Counted from the first letter of the stretch, positions 48,469 to 55,754 are shown. The stretch: DNA of 64,000 nucleotides from Thermoanaerobacterales bacterium (GCA_030019475.1 JASEER010000002.1:1-64000); one strand, 5' to 3'. Notes: generated by a model from the sequence alone, not told the origin. A program made the numbers and translations.

Positions 48469-49440
48469 ATGCATTTCCCCGTTTCGGGTGTGGACGTTTT
48501 CCCTTTGATTCCTCCGCTGATCGCCTTTGTCATATCCTCACTGACGGCCCCGGCCGGCGTCTCGGGCGCCTTCCTGCTCCTGCCCTTCCAGGTCAGCGTC
48601 CTGGGCTTCGTCAGCCCGGCCGTCAGTCCCACGAACCTGATCTACAACATCGTGGCCATCCCCGGAGGGCTCTACCGTTATATTAAGGAAGGGCGCATGG
48701 CCTGGCCCCTCACCTGGGTGATCATCATCGGCACCCTTCCGGGTGTTTTCGCCGGCGCGCTGGTGCGCATCAAGTATTTCCCCGACCCGCGAAACTTCAA
48801 GCTCTTCGTCGGCCTGGTCCTGCTTTACCTGGGCGGGCGGCTCCTCTACGAGGCCACGGGGCGCTACCGTAAGGGGAAAGAACAGCAGAGGGCCCTGGAG
48901 AAGAAGTTCCGGGAGCGGGTCCGGCAACAAAAGGATGATCTGAAGGGGCGCCTGGCCGCCGGGCTTCCCGCCGAGGCGGTGGTCAAGACGAAGTCGGTAT
49001 CCCTGTCGCGCATCGAGTACGAATTCTGGGGCGAGACCTTCTCCTTCAGCACTGTAACGATCTTTGTGCTGGCCCTGGTCGTCGGGTTGATCGGCGGTGT
49101 TTACGGTATCGGCGGTGGGGCGATCATTTCCCCGTTCGTTGTGTCCGTCCTGGGCCTGCCGGTCTATACGGTAGCCGGGGCCGCCCTGGCCGGGACTTTT
49201 CTGACGTCCATCGCCGGCGTGACCTTCTTTGAAGCCCTGGCCCTGACTCCCTTGGGCGCGGAGGCGGTGATCCGGCCGGACTGGGCGCTGGGGGCTCTCT
49301 TCGGCGTCGGCGGTCTGCTGGGCACCTACGTCGGCGCCCGTTTCCAAAAATACCTCCCGGAGAAGTGGATCCGCGTCTTTCTGGGCCTCCTGATCGTCGG
49401 CCTGGCGGTGCAGTACATAACGCAGTTCTTCTTTAGATGA
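48469..49440 (+). CDS. TauE/SafE (TSUP) family membrane permease
   Basis: 323 residues from ATG with AAAGGAGAGGGG. Two four-helix repeats (SSLTAPAGVSGAFLLLPFQV; GLIGGVYGIGGGAIISPF) are separated by a charged cytoplasmic insert (about 130-195, RKGKEQQRALEKKFRERVRQQKDDL) that is long for the family. TSUP members export sulfite, sulfonates or related anions. Third gene of the padR2 operon; ends convergent to the selenium operon. Confidence 0.9.
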   Translation: MHFPVSGVDVFPLIPPLIAFVISSLTAPAGVSGAFLLLPFQVSVLGFVSPAVSPTNLIYNIVAIPGGLYRYIKEGRMAWPLTWVIIIGTLPGVFAGALVRIKYFPDPRNFKLFVGLVLLYLGGRLLYEATGRYRKGKEQQRALEKKFRERVRQQKDDLKGRLAAGLPAEAVVKTKSVSLSRIEYEFWGETFSFSTVTIFVLALVVGLIGGVYGIGGGAIISPFVVSVLGLPVYTVAGAALAGTFLTSIAGVTFFEALALTPLGAEAVIRPDWALGALFGVGGLLGTYVGARFQKYLPEKWIRVFLGLLIVGLAVQYITQFFFR

Positions 49441-49477: not shown

Positions 49478-49795
49478 CTAGAAGGTCAGCATCCTGTCGG
49501 CGCGGGCAATAAGGTTGAGAAACTCCTTCATATTGGATAACGGAGCCAGCTCGCAGGTTACGTTATGGCGTTGAAGGCACTTGCCGCAGGCGATGATCCG
49601 GCCGCCGTTCTTGACAAACTCCGCCGCCTGCCCGAAAACGTCGTAGCTGTCACTCTCAATCTCTTCGATCTTGACGCCGTCCCCGATCAGGAAGACTTCC
49701 ACCGCGTGACCGTCGGCCAGGGCGGCGTTGCCGAAGCGGAAACAGTCGTAAGCCTTCTGTTCATCGGCGCTTTGAAGCATGACCCCGATCAGCAT
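49478..49795 (-). CDS. DsrE-family protein, last gene of the selenium operon
   Basis: 105 residues. LIGVMLQSADEQKAYDCFRFGNAAL and VEVFLIGDGVKIEEIES give the DsrE/YchN alpha-beta fold. CGKCLQRH carries the Cys pair at the position used for persulfide handling in sulfur-relay members. It lies 16 bases behind the small selenoprotein gene. Sulfur or selenium transfer is plausible; similar DsrE proteins are, from memory, named SaoD beside (seleno)proteins in databases. Confidence 0.82.
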   Translation of the reverse strand: MLIGVMLQSADEQKAYDCFRFGNAALADGHAVEVFLIGDGVKIEEIESDSYDVFGQAAEFVKNGGRIIACGKCLQRHNVTCELAPLSNMKEFLNLIARADRMLTF

Positions 49796-49811
49796 TGCCT
49801 GTACCCCCCTC

Positions 49812-50069
49812 TTAATCTCCTGCTGATTGACGCCTAATCGCCCGGCGGACTTCGTCGTAAGTGGGCTTCGGTCCCAAAAACTCCGTCCCGACCTGCAGCT
49901 GCGGCGGGTCGGGGATGTCTTTTCTTCCTCCGATAGTGAGAAAACCCTTGTAGACCGTTTCCACGGAAATCAACTCTCCGAACTCTTCCTTAGCTCGCCC
50001 GGCCAAGGCCATCAGGTGCCTTCACCTGCCGCCCGCGGGCCGGTTACTGTAGACCACTACCTTGAGCAC
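49812..50069 (-). CDS. 85-residue thioredoxin-like selenoprotein
   Basis: GTG at 50069 follows AAGGGGG by nine bases and abuts the previous stop. TGA at 50024-50022 is codon 16; reading it as Sec gives MLKVVVYSNRPAGGRU then RHLMALAGRAKEEF. A beta strand ending in a Gly-Gly-X-U loop before a helix is the thioredoxin-type redox site. The rest (LISVETVYKGFLTIGG, LGPKPTYDEVRRAI) continues the fold. The SECIS-like hairpin (UGGC/GCCG, about 15 bases after UGA) is weak. Without recoding only a 66-residue piece from 50012 would be found. Resembles the family I remember as SaoT. Confidence 0.82.
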
Positions 50070-51191
50070 CTAGCTCACCCCCTTGTGTTCCCGACTATCG
50101 GCGGCGCCCGGCGCCCGCCCGCACCTGCGGCGGCCGAAAACCTTGCCGACGAGGGCATAGGTGGGGCAAAAGCCGAAGATCCCGGTCAGGAAGAACGCCA
50201 GGCCCAGGTAACCCCAGGGCGAGTGCGGGTCCAGGATGACAAGGCCCGCCACCGTGAGTCCTCCGGCGATACGGACGGTCCTTTCCAAAGGGCTCAGGTT
50301 GCGGGTCGGAATGGCATGGCGGACGTCCAGCAGGGTCAATACCTTCTGCGGGCAGACGTTCACGCAGCGCGCGCAGCCCATGCATTCGGTCGTCCGCAGC
50401 TCGCCCTTCATCCGGATCAACCGGCGGATGGGCACGCCCATGTCGCACTCGGCCTCACAGACCCCGCAGTCCTTGCACTTTTCCACGGCCGCCTTAATCC
50501 TGTAGAAGCCCACCAGGTTGAGGACACCCCAGGTGGCCGACCAGGGACAGCCCCAGCGGCAGAAACTGCGGTGACCGGTAAACGGGATGATGAGAAAACT
50601 GGCGTAATAGAGGACCAGTATCCAGTCGTACAGGCGGCGGCCGACCCGGTCGTAGGCGTGGGCGGGGTCGGCCAGCATCAGGACGAAATAGGCCCAGACC
50701 GCGACGAAGAGAATCCATTTGAGATGGCGCAGGCCCCACCAGAAATCCCCCTTCAGGGTGGCGTCCCGGAAGGCGAAGCCGATCGTCTCGCGGTCGAACA
50801 CGCAGGGGCAGTTCCAGCCGCAGTCCACCCTTTTGCCGAGGAAGAAGACGGCGGTCAGCAACAGGAAGAACGGGAGCGAGCCCACCATGTGCACCGCGAG
50901 CACGGTCCTGGCGGTAGTCCCGTCGATAAAGGGCATTGTGGGGTAGAAGGCGGGAATGAGGACCCAGTAGAGGAAGAAAAGGCCGATCATCACCAGGACA
51001 CGTTTTCTCTGGTAGGCGTCCTGCTCTGTGCGCAGCCGCCAGAGCCCGAAGAGGGGAATCAGGTATAGTTCAGGGTAGGCGTTAACCTGCACGGACCCGA
51101 TGTGCAGAGGGTAAAGGTAACTTGACGCCAGCCAGATGAGAGCGGCCAGGGAGACGGCCTTCGCCGGCCGGCTGGTTTTCGCCTTAGCCAT
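50070..51191 (-). CDS. Polytopic membrane ferredoxin (NapH/RnfC-like 4Fe-4S with DUF2892-like tail)
   Basis: 373 residues from ATG 51191, overlapping the methyltransferase stop. Several TM helices, membrane cysteines (VDCGWNCPCVFDRE; FCRWGCPWSATWG) typical of NapH/YccM/4Fe-4S membrane proteins, two ferredoxin motifs (CKDCGVCEAECDM; CMGCARCVNVCP), then a hydrophobic DUF2892/YgaP-type tail (RNLSPLERTVRIAGGLTVAGLVIL, GFCPTYALVG). It should move electrons between the membrane pool and a cytoplasmic redox partner, perhaps the radical SAM enzyme or the selenoprotein. Confidence 0.87.
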   Translation of the reverse strand: MAKAKTSRPAKAVSLAALIWLASSYLYPLHIGSVQVNAYPELYLIPLFGLWRLRTEQDAYQRKRVLVMIGLFFLYWVLIPAFYPTMPFIDGTTARTVLAVHMVGSLPFFLLLTAVFFLGKRVDCGWNCPCVFDRETIGFAFRDATLKGDFWWGLRHLKWILFVAVWAYFVLMLADPAHAYDRVGRRLYDWILVLYYASFLIIPFTGHRSFCRWGCPWSATWGVLNLVGFYRIKAAVEKCKDCGVCEAECDMGVPIRRLIRMKGELRTTECMGCARCVNVCPQKVLTLLDVRHAIPTRNLSPLERTVRIAGGLTVAGLVILDPHSPWGYLGLAFFLTGIFGFCPTYALVGKVFGRRRCGRAPGAADSREHKGVS

Positions 51192-51981
51192 TGTTTCTCC
51201 CCCTTCCCTTGAAGGCCGTAAGCAGCACGTATCCGACCACGCCGTCGTCCACAAGTTGCCGGCCGCGGTTGAGCAAAGCCTTTGTCTGTTCCAGGTCGAT
51301 ATCGAGGTCAAGCTTCTTGAAGGCCTTGCCCAGTTCCAGAAGGAGAAACCTGGCCCGGATGGAGGCCAACAGTGCATGCAGGGCGTCATGGCGGTCCAGG
51401 ACGGTGAACCCGGAAAAACCGGCTGCGCCGAGGATCTCGAGGTAGGCGGGGACGGGAAGGGCGTCGGCGATGCAGGCCGCGCGAAAGAGCAGCCCCTTCA
51501 TGTCGCCGGGCAGGCGGTCCTGGTCGACGGTCATATCGCTGATGCCCAGGACCCCGCCGGGGCGAAGCGCCCGGTACATCTCCGCGGCCGCCGCGGGCTT
51601 ATCGGGGAAGGTGCAGAAGGCGCACTCGGAGATCACGGCGTCGCAGGATCCACCAGGGACCGGCAGTTTTTCCGCGTCCCCCCGGACGAACTCGACCCGC
51701 CCGTCAAGCCCTTCAGCGGCCGCTTTGCGCCTGGCCCGGGCGATGTTTTCCGCTCCCAGGTCGACGCCGATGACCCGGCAGCCGAAAGCCCGGGCCAGGT
51801 AAAGGGCGGTGGCGCCGTTGCCGCAGGCCACGTCGAGAACGGTGCGCCCGCCGGTCAGGCCGAGCAGTTCGCCGAGTTCCCTCGTGAGGCCGAGTCCTCC
51901 GGGATGGAAGCTTTCTCCCAGGAGCATCCGCGCCAGGTCATGCTCGTAGAGGTTCACGCAGGCGCACTTGAAATTATCCAT
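51184..51981 (-). CDS. Class I SAM methyltransferase in the selenium operon
   Basis: 265 residues from ATG 51981, which overlaps the radical SAM stop by eight bases. LDVACGNGATALYLARAFGCRVIGVDLG is the SAM-binding motif; SECAFCTFPDKPAAAAEMYRALRPGGVLGISD follows, as in small-molecule or arsenite-type methyltransferases. An N-terminal FKCACVNLYE pair of Cys could bind metal or substrate. It resembles the family I recall as DVU_1556/TrsM, encoded beside TrsS-type radical SAM proteins. Substrate unknown. Confidence 0.85.
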   Translation of the reverse strand: MDNFKCACVNLYEHDLARMLLGESFHPGGLGLTRELGELLGLTGGRTVLDVACGNGATALYLARAFGCRVIGVDLGAENIARARRKAAAEGLDGRVEFVRGDAEKLPVPGGSCDAVISECAFCTFPDKPAAAAEMYRALRPGGVLGISDMTVDQDRLPGDMKGLLFRAACIADALPVPAYLEILGAAGFSGFTVLDRHDALHALLASIRARFLLLELGKAFKKLDLDIDLEQTKALLNRGRQLVDDGVVGYVLLTAFKGRGRNNG

Positions 51982-53341
51982 CCGACCTACCCCGTTCAAG
52001 ATTGTTATAGACGCAAAAGGGGACGATGCGGCCGTCGGGCAGGAGCTGGTGGATGCAGCACTTCTTTGCCCGCTTGAGGTCGAAACTGTGGCGGTCCATC
52101 AAGGCGTGCACACCGACCATCGTGATCGCATCCTCCAGCTCTTTCAACACTTCGGGGGCGACCCCGCAACAGCAGGCGAAGTCTTTCAGTGTCCGGTCCG
52201 ACCCGGGGGTGGCGCCGGCCGACCAGAGGTTTTCGAGAGCCGCCTGCGTCAGGGGGTCGAGGTTGGTGATGATCCGGTTCTTGAAGTAATCAAGGTAGTC
52301 GTCGACGTTGATCAGCCGGGGCAGGGTTGTGACCCCGTCATCGCTGTTGTAAACGTAAGTGACGCTGAAACAGGTCGGGAACGGGCAGGGAACGGGAATG
52401 AAGTCCCTCCGGGTGAGCAGGCCTCCGGTTTGCTCCTCGACGGCCCGGAGCACATCCGGAAGGGTGATCCTTTGGGTCGGCGTGAACGGCGGAAGATAAC
52501 GCCCCGTGCAGGCCGCCGGCTGGAAGATCACACCCCTGATCCGGGGGTGCTCGATGGCGAAGCGGGTGATTTCTCCGATCTCGCCGTCGTTGACCCCCTC
52601 CACGACGGTTACGGCGAGTACGATGGTGAAGCCGTGAGAGGCCAGGCGGTCCACGGCCTTCATCTTGTCGGCGGCGAGGTCGCGCCCGCGGATCAGTTCG
52701 TAGGTCGCCGGCCGGAAGCCGTCGAATTGCAGGTAGACGCTCGGCTTGAGTTCGGCCAGACGCTCGACGAAGTCCGGGTCGCGGGCGATGCGCAGGCCGT
52801 TGGTGTTCAACTGCACGGTCCCGATGCCCATGTCCCGCGCGGCTGTGATGACGGCGAACAGTTCCGGGTGCAATGTGGGTTCGCCGCCGCTGATCTGGAC
52901 GACCTCGGGTGAACCCTCGGCCGTACGGTACCGGGAGAGCATTTCACGCACCGTGGCCAACGGCACGTGGCGCACCGGGGCGGCGCCGGCCGCGGCGAAA
53001 CAGACGGGGCATTCCAGGTCGCAGGCGTTGGTGATTTCGACCAGCGCCAGGCAGGTGTGCTGCTGGTGTTCGGGGCAAAGGCCGCAGTCGTGCGGGCAGC
53101 CCCGGGCCGTGCGGGAATGGAACCCGGCCGGGACGGCCCCCGGCTTGTTAAACATCAGGCTGAACCGGTAATGCTCCAGGTCGGACGACACCAGGGCCTC
53201 CGAATGGCCATGATCGGGGCAAAACTTGCGGAAGAAAACGCGGTTGTCCCGTACCAGGACGTCGGCGTCGACCAACCGCCCGCAGACGGGACAGAGGCTC
53301 CGGGCCACCTCCAGGAAAACCTCGGACCGGTTTTGCCTCAT
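51974..53341 (-). CDS. Multi-cluster radical SAM protein (TrsS/Tes-like)
   Basis: 455 residues from ATG 53341 after GAGAGGAAG. An N-terminal Cys-rich region (LCPVCGRLV, FCPDHGHSE, GCPHDCGLCPEHQQHTC) precedes the radical SAM motif TNACDLECPVCFAAAG, then SGGEPTLHPELF and LQFDGFRPATYE. The C-terminal part adds CPFPTCFSVTYV, FACCCGVAPE and KRAKKCCIHQLLPDGRIVPFC, so three or four Fe-S clusters are expected. This layout fits the superfamily of archaeal tetraether synthase Tes and of proteins I remember as TrsS (seleno)proteins; here all positions are Cys. Reaction unknown. Confidence 0.87.
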   Translation of the reverse strand: MRQNRSEVFLEVARSLCPVCGRLVDADVLVRDNRVFFRKFCPDHGHSEALVSSDLEHYRFSLMFNKPGAVPAGFHSRTARGCPHDCGLCPEHQQHTCLALVEITNACDLECPVCFAAAGAAPVRHVPLATVREMLSRYRTAEGSPEVVQISGGEPTLHPELFAVITAARDMGIGTVQLNTNGLRIARDPDFVERLAELKPSVYLQFDGFRPATYELIRGRDLAADKMKAVDRLASHGFTIVLAVTVVEGVNDGEIGEITRFAIEHPRIRGVIFQPAACTGRYLPPFTPTQRITLPDVLRAVEEQTGGLLTRRDFIPVPCPFPTCFSVTYVYNSDDGVTTLPRLINVDDYLDYFKNRIITNLDPLTQAALENLWSAGATPGSDRTLKDFACCCGVAPEVLKELEDAITMVGVHALMDRHSFDLKRAKKCCIHQLLPDGRIVPFCVYNNLERGRSDG

Positions 53342-53399
53342 CGCTTCCTCTCCCCCCAATTCTTTGAGAACTAACCGGCGAGCCTTAAGGCTGACCCGG

Positions 53400-54449
53400 T
53401 CACTCCCGCCCGGTAACCTGCAGGCGGCCCTTCTCAGAGGTGAAAACGCCGATCACCGCCGCCGGCACTCCCTCCGCGCGCAGCGCCGCCAGCAGCCTGT
53501 CGGCCTTCTCTTCGCCGATCGCCATCAAGAGCCCGCCCGAGGTCTGCGGGTCGCAGAGGAGCAGCTTCATTTCCCGCTCCAGTCCGTCATCCCACTCCAT
53601 GCGGTCGCGCAGGTAGCGGAGGTTGTGGTGCGTCCCCGCCGGCACCACGCCGGCCTCGATCAGGGCAGAGGCGCCTTCGATGACCGGGACACGGGAGGCC
53701 CAGAGACGTACGCCGACCTCCCCCCCGCCCAGCATCTCCCGCAGGTGGCCGAGCAGCCCGAAACCGGTGACGTCGGTGCAGGCGTGGACCCCGACGCGGG
53801 TCATGACTGCGGCGGCCTTGTCATTCAGGGCGGTCATTATCCGGACGACACGGTCAACCAAACCCGGCTCCGCCATCTGTCTGTCGATACCGGTGGTGAT
53901 GGCTCCCGTCCCCAACGGCTTGGTCAGGACCAGCAGGTCCCCGGGCCGAGCTCCGGTGCGCCGGACGAGGCGTCGCGGGTCGACGGTCCCGGTGACGGCC
54001 AGACCGTACTTGGGGGCGTTATCGGCAATCGAGTGGCCGCCGGCGATGGTGACCCCGGCCTCGGCGGCCTTGTTCGCCCCGCCCTTGAGGATGGTCTCCA
54101 GAACCGAGAGAGGGAGGGATTGATTGGGAAAGCCCACGAGGTTTAGCGCCATAACCGGCCTGCCCCCCATGGCGTAGACGTCGCTGAGGGCGTTGGCCGC
54201 GGCGACCTGCCCGAAGACGTAGGGGTCGTTCACTACGGGTGTGATATAGTCCACCGTCTGGATTACGGCCAGATCTTCCGATAACCGTAAGACGGCGGCG
54301 TCGTCCCGGAGGTTGGTAAGGATGCGCGGATCACTGATGGAGGGCAGGACTTTGAGTACGCGTTCCAGGTCCGCCGGACCCATCTTGCATGCTCAGCCGG
54401 AACCGGGGGAGTACGAAGTGAGGTTGATGTTCGTAAGGATATCGTTCAT
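53400..54449 (-). CDS. selD: Selenophosphate synthase SelD, selenocysteine form
   Basis: 349 residues from ATG 54449 (GGAAGAAGTGG upstream), first gene of the six-gene minus-strand operon. TGA at 54395-54393 is codon 19; read as Sec it gives SYSPGSGU followed by ACKMGPADLERVL, the glycine-rich catalytic loop with Sec in place of Cys17 of E. coli SelD. The AIRS-type domains show DDAAVL, TVDYITPVVNDPYVFGQVAAANALSD, AGGHSI and DPQTSGGLL. SelD makes selenophosphate from selenide and ATP for Sec-tRNA synthesis. Conceptual translation starts it too late, at the ATG at 54383. Confidence 0.96.
54367..54395 (-). promoter_or_regulatory. bSECIS of selD with UGA Sec codon
   Basis: UGA, 11 bases, stem GGGUCC (54381-54376), loop GGC, stem GGACCU (54372-54367). 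Small loop but good stem and correct distance. Confidence 0.7.
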
Positions 54450-54496: not shown

Positions 54497-54552
54497 ATCG
54501 TAGCCTTGCGGCCGCTATAATGCAAATATATAGTTTGCATATTACCTATGCA
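54497..54552. promoter_or_regulatory. Shared selD/lysR control region with two overlapping palindromes
   Basis: ATGCAAA-7-TTTGCAT (54520-54540) overlaps TGCATA-TTACC-TATGCA (54536-54552). On the minus strand TTGCAT inside the first dyad, 17 bases and TACGAT (54502-54497) form a selD promoter. LysR regulators bind such T-N11-A dyads, so the divergent LysR product probably controls both directions. Confidence 0.7.
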
Positions 54553-54588: not shown

Positions 54589-55443
54589 ATCCGCCTCGAA
54601 CCCCTTTACTACTTCTACCTGGTCGCCCGGCGCCAAAGCTTCTCCCGCGCCGCCGAAGAGATGCACCTCTCGCAGCCGGCCGTCTCGCGGCAGGTCGCCA
54701 ACCTGGAGGCCGACCTGGGCGTGAAGCTCTTCGTGCGGAACTCCCGGTCCATCGCCCTTACCGATGCGGGGGAGTGCCTCTACCGGCACGTCGACCAGAT
54801 GATGGACCTGGTGGAGCAGGCGAAGAAGTTGATCTCGCAGATGGCCGATCTGGAACATGGGCGAGTGGCCGTGGGGGTTTGCGGTCTGGTCGGGACGTAT
54901 ATCCTGCCGCGCGTCCTGGCGCGCTTTAGCCAAAGCCACCCCGGTATCCAGGTTAGCCTGATGTTTGCCGGGGAGAGCCGGGTGTGCCGGATGGTCGGGG
55001 CCGGAGAGATCGACCTGGGCGTCATCGCCGGCGGAATGCCGGCCCCCGGCCTTCATCTGGAGCCTGTGCTGCGCGACAGGCTGGTAGTGGTGGCCCCGGC
55101 CGGGGCCTCGCCCCCGGTCGTTTTCACCCTTGGTCCCGACACCGCGGTCGGCAGGCTGGTCCGTGAACGCGAGGCATCGAGCGGGAACAGGATCGAGGTC
55201 GTAGACCACGTGGAAACGCTTAAAGCCATGGTTGCCGCCGGGCTGGGTAAGGGTTACGTGCCCGGTTTCGCCGTAGGGTCCGATTCCGGTTTTGTCTCCC
55301 CGAAGGGTGCCTGTGACATCCCCTTTGATATTAACCTGGTGTGGCCGAAGAACCGGTATAACAATCCGGCAACGCTGGTCCTGGCCAGCTTCTTACAGAA
55401 ATACTTCGCTGATGTGCGGCGCGGCACTCAACCATTCTCTTAG
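54589..55443 (+). CDS. LysR-family regulator divergent from selD, apparent AUC start
   Basis: The frame runs RLEPLYYFYLVARRQSFSRAAEEMHLSQPAVSRQ (split motif, residues 2-35), which is the full LysR HTH. The first ATG (54661) would delete half the HTH. No ATG, GTG, TTG or CTG lies between the upstream in-frame TAA (54562) and that ATG. ATC at 54589 stands exactly where LysR proteins begin, five to six bases after GGAAGGTG, so AUC initiation is proposed. 284 residues, normal length, with a substrate-binding domain of periplasmic-protein fold. Likely regulator of the selenium operon. Confidence 0.9.
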   Translation: MRLEPLYYFYLVARRQSFSRAAEEMHLSQPAVSRQVANLEADLGVKLFVRNSRSIALTDAGECLYRHVDQMMDLVEQAKKLISQMADLEHGRVAVGVCGLVGTYILPRVLARFSQSHPGIQVSLMFAGESRVCRMVGAGEIDLGVIAGGMPAPGLHLEPVLRDRLVVVAPAGASPPVVFTLGPDTAVGRLVREREASSGNRIEVVDHVETLKAMVAAGLGKGYVPGFAVGSDSGFVSPKGACDIPFDINLVWPKNRYNNPATLVLASFLQKYFADVRRGTQPFS

Positions 55444-55508: not shown

Positions 55509-55754
55509 TTAGAGGCGTTTGACGCCGTCCGCCGTGACCTGGTCCGAGCCGCGTTCGACGAAGGTCTTGCAGCAGGTCTCCATGCAGGTCTTAACGGGCG
55601 TCACGGGGGCCCGGCCGGCGTCCGGGGCGTCGAAGGAGTCGGGCTTTTGCGCGCCCAGGGTGTCTGAGGTCACAATGATCTCCTCTGCCACGCAGAGGTT
55701 GTCCTGCGACCAGTAGTTTCAGTTGTTGACCGAACAGCGTATACGAGCAGCCAT
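55509..55754 (-). CDS. DUF1540 selenoprotein
   Basis: 81 residues from ATG 55754 with GGGGAGG upstream. TGA at 55721-55719 is codon 12; as Sec it gives MAARIRCSVNNU then NYWSQDNLCVAEEIIV, the DUF1540 pattern in which that position is normally Cys (C7, U12, C21). The C-terminal half adds a second cysteine group C57-X3-C61-C62 (TCMETCCKTF). DUF1540 domains are small metal-binding-like modules of unknown role in Firmicutes. A stem CGCAG/CUGCG with an eight-base loop starts 10 bases after UGA. Without recoding a 60-residue remnant would be seen. Confidence 0.88.

Follow-up and report, generated by a model that had tools for sequence, protein, structure and literature searches.

A conserved selenium operon with a second selenophosphate synthetase and a shared operator in a Thermoanaerobacterales bacterium

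We analysed a window of 64,000 nucleotides (nt) from a Thermoanaerobacterales bacterium, whose genome is labelled G000 here. Six genes on its minus strand, at 49478-54449, encode in this order a selenophosphate synthetase (selD), a radical S-adenosylmethionine (SAM) enzyme, a methyltransferase, a membrane protein, a small thioredoxin-like selenoprotein (sec) and a DsrE-like protein. The computation established that the operon is conserved and depends on selenium, and that it has a second synthetase dedicated to it, SelD2, and a shared operator. The wider unit consists of SelD2, a LysR-type regulator and a thioredoxin-fold selenoprotein, and the genes of the radical SAM enzyme, the methyltransferase and the membrane protein form an exchangeable cassette. 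These modules and their co-regulation appear well supported by sequence comparison. Regarding the role of the locus, the reading that we put first, although tentatively and without calling it probable, is a LysR-controlled accessory selenium operon in which a reductant-fed module for metalloid methylation or alkylation has its own selenium supply. The locus bears on the open question of why a bacterium that makes selenocysteine (Sec) retains a second, separately regulated selenophosphate synthetase. Since SelD2 forms a clear clade, is marked by a near-exclusive operator and has few partner genes, a direct hunt for its acceptor is possible.

A preliminary description of this DNA had given the coordinates and the order of the six minus-strand genes correctly. 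Its statement that they mostly overlap was slightly generous, because there are two overlaps of 8 bp (radical SAM/methyltransferase and methyltransferase/membrane protein) and one abutment (0 bp, membrane protein/sec), but also gaps of 58 bp (selD to radical SAM) and 16 bp (sec to dsrE). This spacing, together with the conserved gene order, suggests a single transcript. The scan for promoters and terminators gave one promoter-like site, on the plus strand in the gap between the LysR gene and selD, and nothing decisive within the operon; Rfam at its gathering threshold gave no match in the window.

When the radical SAM enzyme was used to search 113 genomes of the class, eight orthologues were found, the window's own and seven at 55-63% identity, with the other relatives well apart at 35-43%. 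The eight genomes (G000, G035, G046, G047, G048, G060, G072 and G112) belong to six families. In six of them, from four families (G000, G112, G046, G048, G047 and G060), the divergent LysR gene and the five genes from selD to sec stand in the same order; the five recur at loci L033, L034, L035, L036 and L037, where the TGA of the small gene is always retained. The preliminary description had staked its reading of a single self-contained pathway on the genes co-occurring in other genomes, and such co-occurrence across families was indeed what we found. Nevertheless, that reading needs correcting. G072 has the last four of these genes without an adjacent selD and, elsewhere, a second cluster of selD2, a NapH-like gene and sec; G035 has the radical SAM gene alone, with selD2 at another place in the genome; and the loci of the selenoproteins TsoX and TsoY have selD2 without the cassette. 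Because the cassette is exchangeable in this way, the operon is not one fixed pathway. Neither can DsrE, which had been counted in the set, be kept as a core member: no dsrE homologue was found at the related loci, so that it is private to the G000 copy, and we rejected it for this want of conservation. The DsrE protein matches PF02635 (49 bits) and, weakly, the YedF family TIGR03527 (E=3.5e-4).

Beyond the class, we sampled the phylum evenly, and the membrane protein had one more relative there, in G482 (470 bits). Its locus, L161 (G482:C16:66000-77400, from another class), clusters TsoY, a CGGC-motif protein, a NifS-like desulfurase, OsmC-like and ArsR-like genes and the NapH-like membrane protein. 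A pattern-based scan of 84,980 GTDB species for the membrane protein gave at least four clear loci, all in metagenome-assembled genomes, and the isolate names of two of the four appear to indicate mines. The bacteria with the second selD and its operon are anaerobes, and several of them appear to come from mine or sediment sites. Furthermore, a plasmid of Mycolicibacterium vanbaalenii JOB5 (L186, NZ_CP126902.1 116502-141065) carries the radical SAM-methyltransferase pair at 43% and about 51% identity without selD, and therefore the pair needs no dedicated SelD. The plasmid setting follows the same logic, since radical SAM enzyme and methyltransferase are combined with transmembrane electron transfer and a thioredoxin-fold protein near thiol-redox genes. 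The plasmid pair adjoins genes of the Rv1679/Rv1680/Rv1681 families, CcdA, a ResA-like gene, a mycoredoxin and a deiodinase-like gene.

The selD product scores 381 bits against TIGR00476 (cut-off 125). As had been proposed, it contains Sec: its one in-frame TGA, codon 19, stands at the selenocysteine position of the active-site loop SPGSGUACKMG, and the catalytic Sec/Lys motif is present. G000 has a second SelD, at G000:C32. Two Sec-containing SelDs were found in seven of the eight genomes with the radical SAM orthologue; the other one, G060, is 70% complete and has the operon copy only. In the whole class SelD is present in 107 genomes and in two copies in 15, which means that a second SelD occurs in 7/8 genomes with the orthologue vs 8/99 others (Fisher p = 1.8e-6, ignoring the kinship between genomes). 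In a tree of 53 SelDs, the 15 with the motif SYSPG(S/A)GU fell on one side of a branch with support 100/100, and the copies with GUAAK or GUASK on the other. We call the former clade SelD2 and the latter type SelD1. The operon-type SelD2 copies are not one clade; therefore, gain or loss of the cassette beside SelD2 happened at least twice. At the loci marked by the operator, SelD2 is as a rule found with thioredoxin-fold selenoproteins, and mostly also with a reductase or other redox partner (a NapH-like ferredoxin, thioredoxin reductase or a protein resembling coenzyme A-disulfide reductase). The selenoprotein and the reductase likely form one electron path.

The regulator gene, divergent from selD2, has as best NCBIfam match the selenium metabolism-associated LysR family NF040786, at 125 bits and thus below the cut-off of 250. 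Its annotated start is probably too late, the N-terminus extending upstream. The LysRs of seven other selD2 loci have the same best match, one of them (L099) above the cut-off. The aligned intergenic regions between LysR and selD2 share one element, from which we derived the operator pattern ATGCAAACTATNCATTTGTATTATA and scanned the 113 genomes with three mismatches allowed. There were 16 sites in 15 of the genomes, against 1 for the reversed pattern as a control, and all 16 lie beside selD2 or its remains, the gene being intact, truncated where the contig ends (G045) or decayed (the second G034 site, G044 and G096). The pattern comes from ten of the matched loci, so the matches at those ten are there by construction. 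The sites outside the derivation set (G045, G044, G096 and both in G034) are also beside selD2, and no site elsewhere in the 113 genomes fitted the pattern. Thus the earlier suggestion that the locus includes its own selenium supply gains in strength, as SelD2 is a separate clade and the operator ties it to thioredoxin-like selenoproteins. The decayed or insertion-disrupted selD2 genes of G034, G096 and G044 (L183, L185 and L147) still have the operator upstream, and selD2 is often lost; that of G034 adjoins another gene for a CGGC-motif protein (L183 4857-5189).

Where selD2 occurs with TsoX and TsoY, both above their cut-offs, operator copies with 4-5 mismatches were seen near TsoY, TsoX or thioredoxin reductase, a post hoc observation with fewer controls. 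Because of these weaker copies and of the LysRs that match NF040786 best, the window operon and the Tso genes probably form one regulon under a shared LysR type and operator. The Tso selenoproteins (TsoC, TsoX and TsoY) also resemble the operon in having a small thioredoxin-like selenoprotein with GxxU. However, the operon motif is SNRPxGxxU and that of TsoC is NEPxGxxU, and sec scores 20 bits against TsoC (NF045708, cut-off 45), its relatives 16-34 bits. The window operon has no TsoA, TsoB, TsoX or TsoY; for TsoA and TsoB the search covered the operon genes and three flanking genes.

The sec gene has a single in-frame TGA, codon 16, in the context SNRPAGGRU, and it is retained in all ten relatives aligned. 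Thirteen nt past it lies a stem of 7 bp resembling a selenocysteine insertion sequence (SECIS), in which 91% of the cells are paired over the ten relatives; this pairing was reached by 4/500 shuffles and is far above the slid-partner controls. The genome has selA with selB adjoining and a tRNA-Sec (78.6 bits). Taken together, selA, selB, the tRNA, the retained TGA and the SECIS-like stem mark the product as a predicted bacterial selenoprotein. As the preliminary description had it, the protein is thioredoxin-like: the structural model (predicted local distance difference test score 84) resembles thioredoxins with template modelling scores up to 0.78, so that a thioredoxin fold is predicted, and in it Sec16 is placed at the start of helix 1 (residues 14-33), the position of the active chalcogen in this fold. 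In the membrane protein there are two Cys motifs of NapH type and two 4Fe-4S motifs, all of them mostly unchanged across seven homologues; its score against the NapH/MauN ferredoxin family is 56 bits (cut-off 213). A second family of small thioredoxin-like selenoproteins, with the motif NxxxGxxURSLQALAGKVK, occurs at G000:C5:87161-87397 (L140) and at L141, L142, L143, L144 and L146. It has a different conserved context, beside a protein of about 500 residues, and the one copy scanned scores 16 bits to TsoC, below the cut-off.

Alignment shows a zinc ribbon at the N-terminus of the radical SAM enzyme, and auxiliary Cys sets that are conserved. Against TrsS (NF045646, cut-off 490) it scores 377 bits and two orthologues 382 and 337, whereas true TrsS proteins of the same class reach 659-711 bits, and in the tree it is in a separate clade; the three are below the Tes cut-off as well. 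TrsS is listed in a 2026 review (PMC13188914) as coming from Haft & Tolstoy 2025. The methyltransferase scores 134 bits against DVU_1556 (NF045667, cut-off 155), its copy at L033 146, and true members 260-274. Judged against NCBIfam 20.0 and the same review, the two proteins would therefore be new and unnamed families below cut-off, sisters of TrsS and DVU_1556. They are defined by this operon, and a single regulator would link them to the Tso selenoproteins, themselves uncharacterised. The TrsS and DVU_1556 system likewise has a Tes-like radical SAM enzyme adjoining an ArsM-like methyltransferase, but the operon is without its DVU_1553, DVU_1555 and XdhC partners and has selD2, a NapH-like ferredoxin and a Sec-thioredoxin instead. 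The resemblance to Trs and Sao that the preliminary description had suggested is therefore half right: the kin are Trs and also Tso, and filing under Sao (SaoB/C/P/T/X-type) was rejected, as no Sao family was among the matches listed for any operon protein. In L042 (8970-11054) TrsS is fused to an N-terminal region resembling the metal-binding selenoprotein MbdU (123 bits). A defence system was also rejected, the likeness of the enzyme to viperins being of the generic radical SAM kind only.

In the PDB sequence search the radical SAM enzyme matched the tetraether lipid synthase Tes (7TOL, E=2e-102) from end to end, with the C-terminal CC...PFC motifs included. With a membrane electron carrier in the operon, the enzyme might then couple or alkylate membrane lipids or a quinone and the methyltransferase methylate them, the selenium genes only supporting a Sec redox partner. 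We consider this decidedly unlikely, since the score against the Tes family (NF045702) is 345 bits with a cut-off of 450 and the methyltransferase retains metalloid-type cysteines. The operon also differs from Tes in its setting, a bacterial selenium context with a methyltransferase.

These cysteines are C8, C120 and C170, invariant in an alignment of the operon methyltransferases, one DVU_1556-type methyltransferase and three annotated ArsMs; we take the matching positions to be those that bind arsenic in the ArsM structures. Among the non-arsenic methyltransferases listed from the PDB sequence search, whose matches were generic, the C120 position has other residues. Several other selD2 loci have metal or arsenic genes nearby, namely ArsR and a heavy-metal ATPase (G027), a heavy-metal ATPase (G072) and Acr3 (G068). 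We infer that the substrate of the pair is a metalloid or organometalloid, and the Cys triad and these neighbours favour arsenic-type chemistry. In the mechanism that we propose, the methyltransferase would hold a thiophilic metalloid on its three cysteines, As(III) by analogy, although Sb or Se species are possible, and would use SAM to methylate it. A carbon group might then be added to the product, or moved on it, by the radical SAM enzyme, as in arsenosugar synthesis by ArsM plus ArsS. The membrane polyferredoxin may give electrons to the radical SAM clusters, to the Sec-thioredoxin or to both, and the Sec-thioredoxin may reduce a metalloid-thiol or selenium intermediate. Once LysR turns on the operon, SelD2 would secure the selenophosphate needed for Sec in the proteins that the operon encodes, and perhaps also for a second acceptor.

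Several observations weigh against a metalloid substrate. ArsM and ArsS also pair a Cys-triad methyltransferase with a radical SAM enzyme and selenium; however, the operon enzyme falls outside the ArsS family, with 28 bits for a cut-off of 300, and is closer to Tes and TrsS, and the methyltransferase is well below the ArsM cut-off (PRK11873, 110 bits against 263). The fold search with the methyltransferase model gave generic small-molecule class I methyltransferases, and therefore the fold leaves the substrate unpinned. Furthermore, we saw no arsenic gene among those of the operon, and some selD2 loci (G034 and G086) show no metal gene.

The main rival to metalloid modification is a selenium-assimilation relay, in which the membrane reductase and the Sec-thioredoxin would reduce selenite, Se(0) or selenodisulfides and pass selenide to SelD2. 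Persulfide or perselenide would be carried by DsrE in this genome and by partners of rhodanese type at other loci, and organoselenium or surplus selenide would be left to the radical SAM enzyme and the methyltransferase. It is indeed thioredoxin-fold selenoproteins and reductases that constantly accompany SelD2, not the radical SAM enzyme and the methyltransferase; there are NifS-like and TsoY genes near the membrane protein homologue of G482; DsrE has YedF-like similarity; and, according to PMC13188914, it is not yet settled what donates selenium to SelD in vivo. Nevertheless, the relay leaves unexplained why the pair is in the operon at all, as well as its occurrence without selD, and we regard it as somewhat unlikely.

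Regarding the known uses of selenophosphate, YqeB (TIGR03309), the marker of selenium-dependent molybdenum hydroxylases (SDMH), was found in none of the eight genomes with the radical SAM orthologue but in 51/105 of the others (p=0.007). Support of such a hydroxylase, of the orphan-SelD type, is thus rejected for this operon subtype and seems most improbable, in spite of one selD2 locus with YqeB about 6 kb away (G010, L089) and of the XdhC-like and NTP-transferase genes that, by sequence reading, true TrsS loci carry. SelU (TIGR03167) is present in G035, G060, G072 and G112 and was not found in G000, G046, G047 and G048, where it is therefore rejected as the reason for SelD2. As both markers are absent from the latter four genomes, no known selenophosphate user besides Sec synthesis was found in them. 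A dedicated SelD2 in these genomes would suit a selenometabolite pathway, in which the radical SAM enzyme and the methyltransferase use its selenophosphate to make a small organic selenium compound; the analogy is with SenC in selenoneine synthesis. The SenABC selenoneine cluster also has a second SelD dedicated to one locus, but the operon is without an EgtB-like or glycosyltransferase-like gene and its SelD2 itself contains Sec. No C-Se-forming family (SenA/SenB type) was among the operon's NCBIfam matches, SelD2 also occurs without the pair and the pair without selD, and this pathway appears quite unlikely. A broader proposal, rather unlikely in our view, is that the SelD2 product goes beyond Sec, selenouridine and the molybdenum hydroxylase cofactor, and that what the pair makes, under a dedicated LysR switch, is an organoselenium compound or an organometalloid one containing both As and Se.

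Table 1. Features of the selD2 locus, with positions in the window
Feature	Position	Strand	Basis
Divergent LysR-type regulator	54661..55443	+	NF040786 best match, conserved synteny; start probably annotated too late
LysR-selD2 operator (predicted) ATGCAAACTATATATTTGCATTATA	54516..54540	-	aligned intergenic regions and class-wide scan
selD2, Sec-containing selenophosphate synthetase	53400..54449	-	TIGR00476 381 bits; Sec codon 54395-54393
Radical SAM enzyme, TrsS/Tes sister family, N-terminal zinc ribbon	51974..53341	-	TrsS 377, Tes 345 bits; alignment, tree
Class I SAM methyltransferase, DVU_1556/ArsM-like	51184..51981	-	NF045667 134, PRK11873 110 bits; C8, C120, C170; model
Polytopic NapH-like membrane polyferredoxin, YgaP-like transmembrane segment	50070..51191	-	profile matches, alignment
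Thioredoxin-fold selenoprotein SNRPxGxxU, TsoC-like	49812..50069	-	TsoC 20 bits; Sec codon 50024-50022
SECIS-like hairpin downstream of the sec Sec codon	49988..50008	-	covarying stem
DsrE-like protein	49478..49795	-	PF02635 49 bits; operon membership by position only

Downstream of the operon and convergent with it lies a gene for a TauE/SafE-family transporter (48469-49440, plus strand), which shows no conservation with the operon. On the other side, a DUF1540 gene of the minus strand (55509-55754) has an in-frame TGA at codon 12, exactly at the position of a Cys in its homologue at L033 (4448-4696). Shortly after the TGA comes a strong hairpin (z -3.8); none of the DUF1540 matches listed for the class has a stop. 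The gene possibly encodes a selenoprotein form of DUF1540, or alternatively is damaged.

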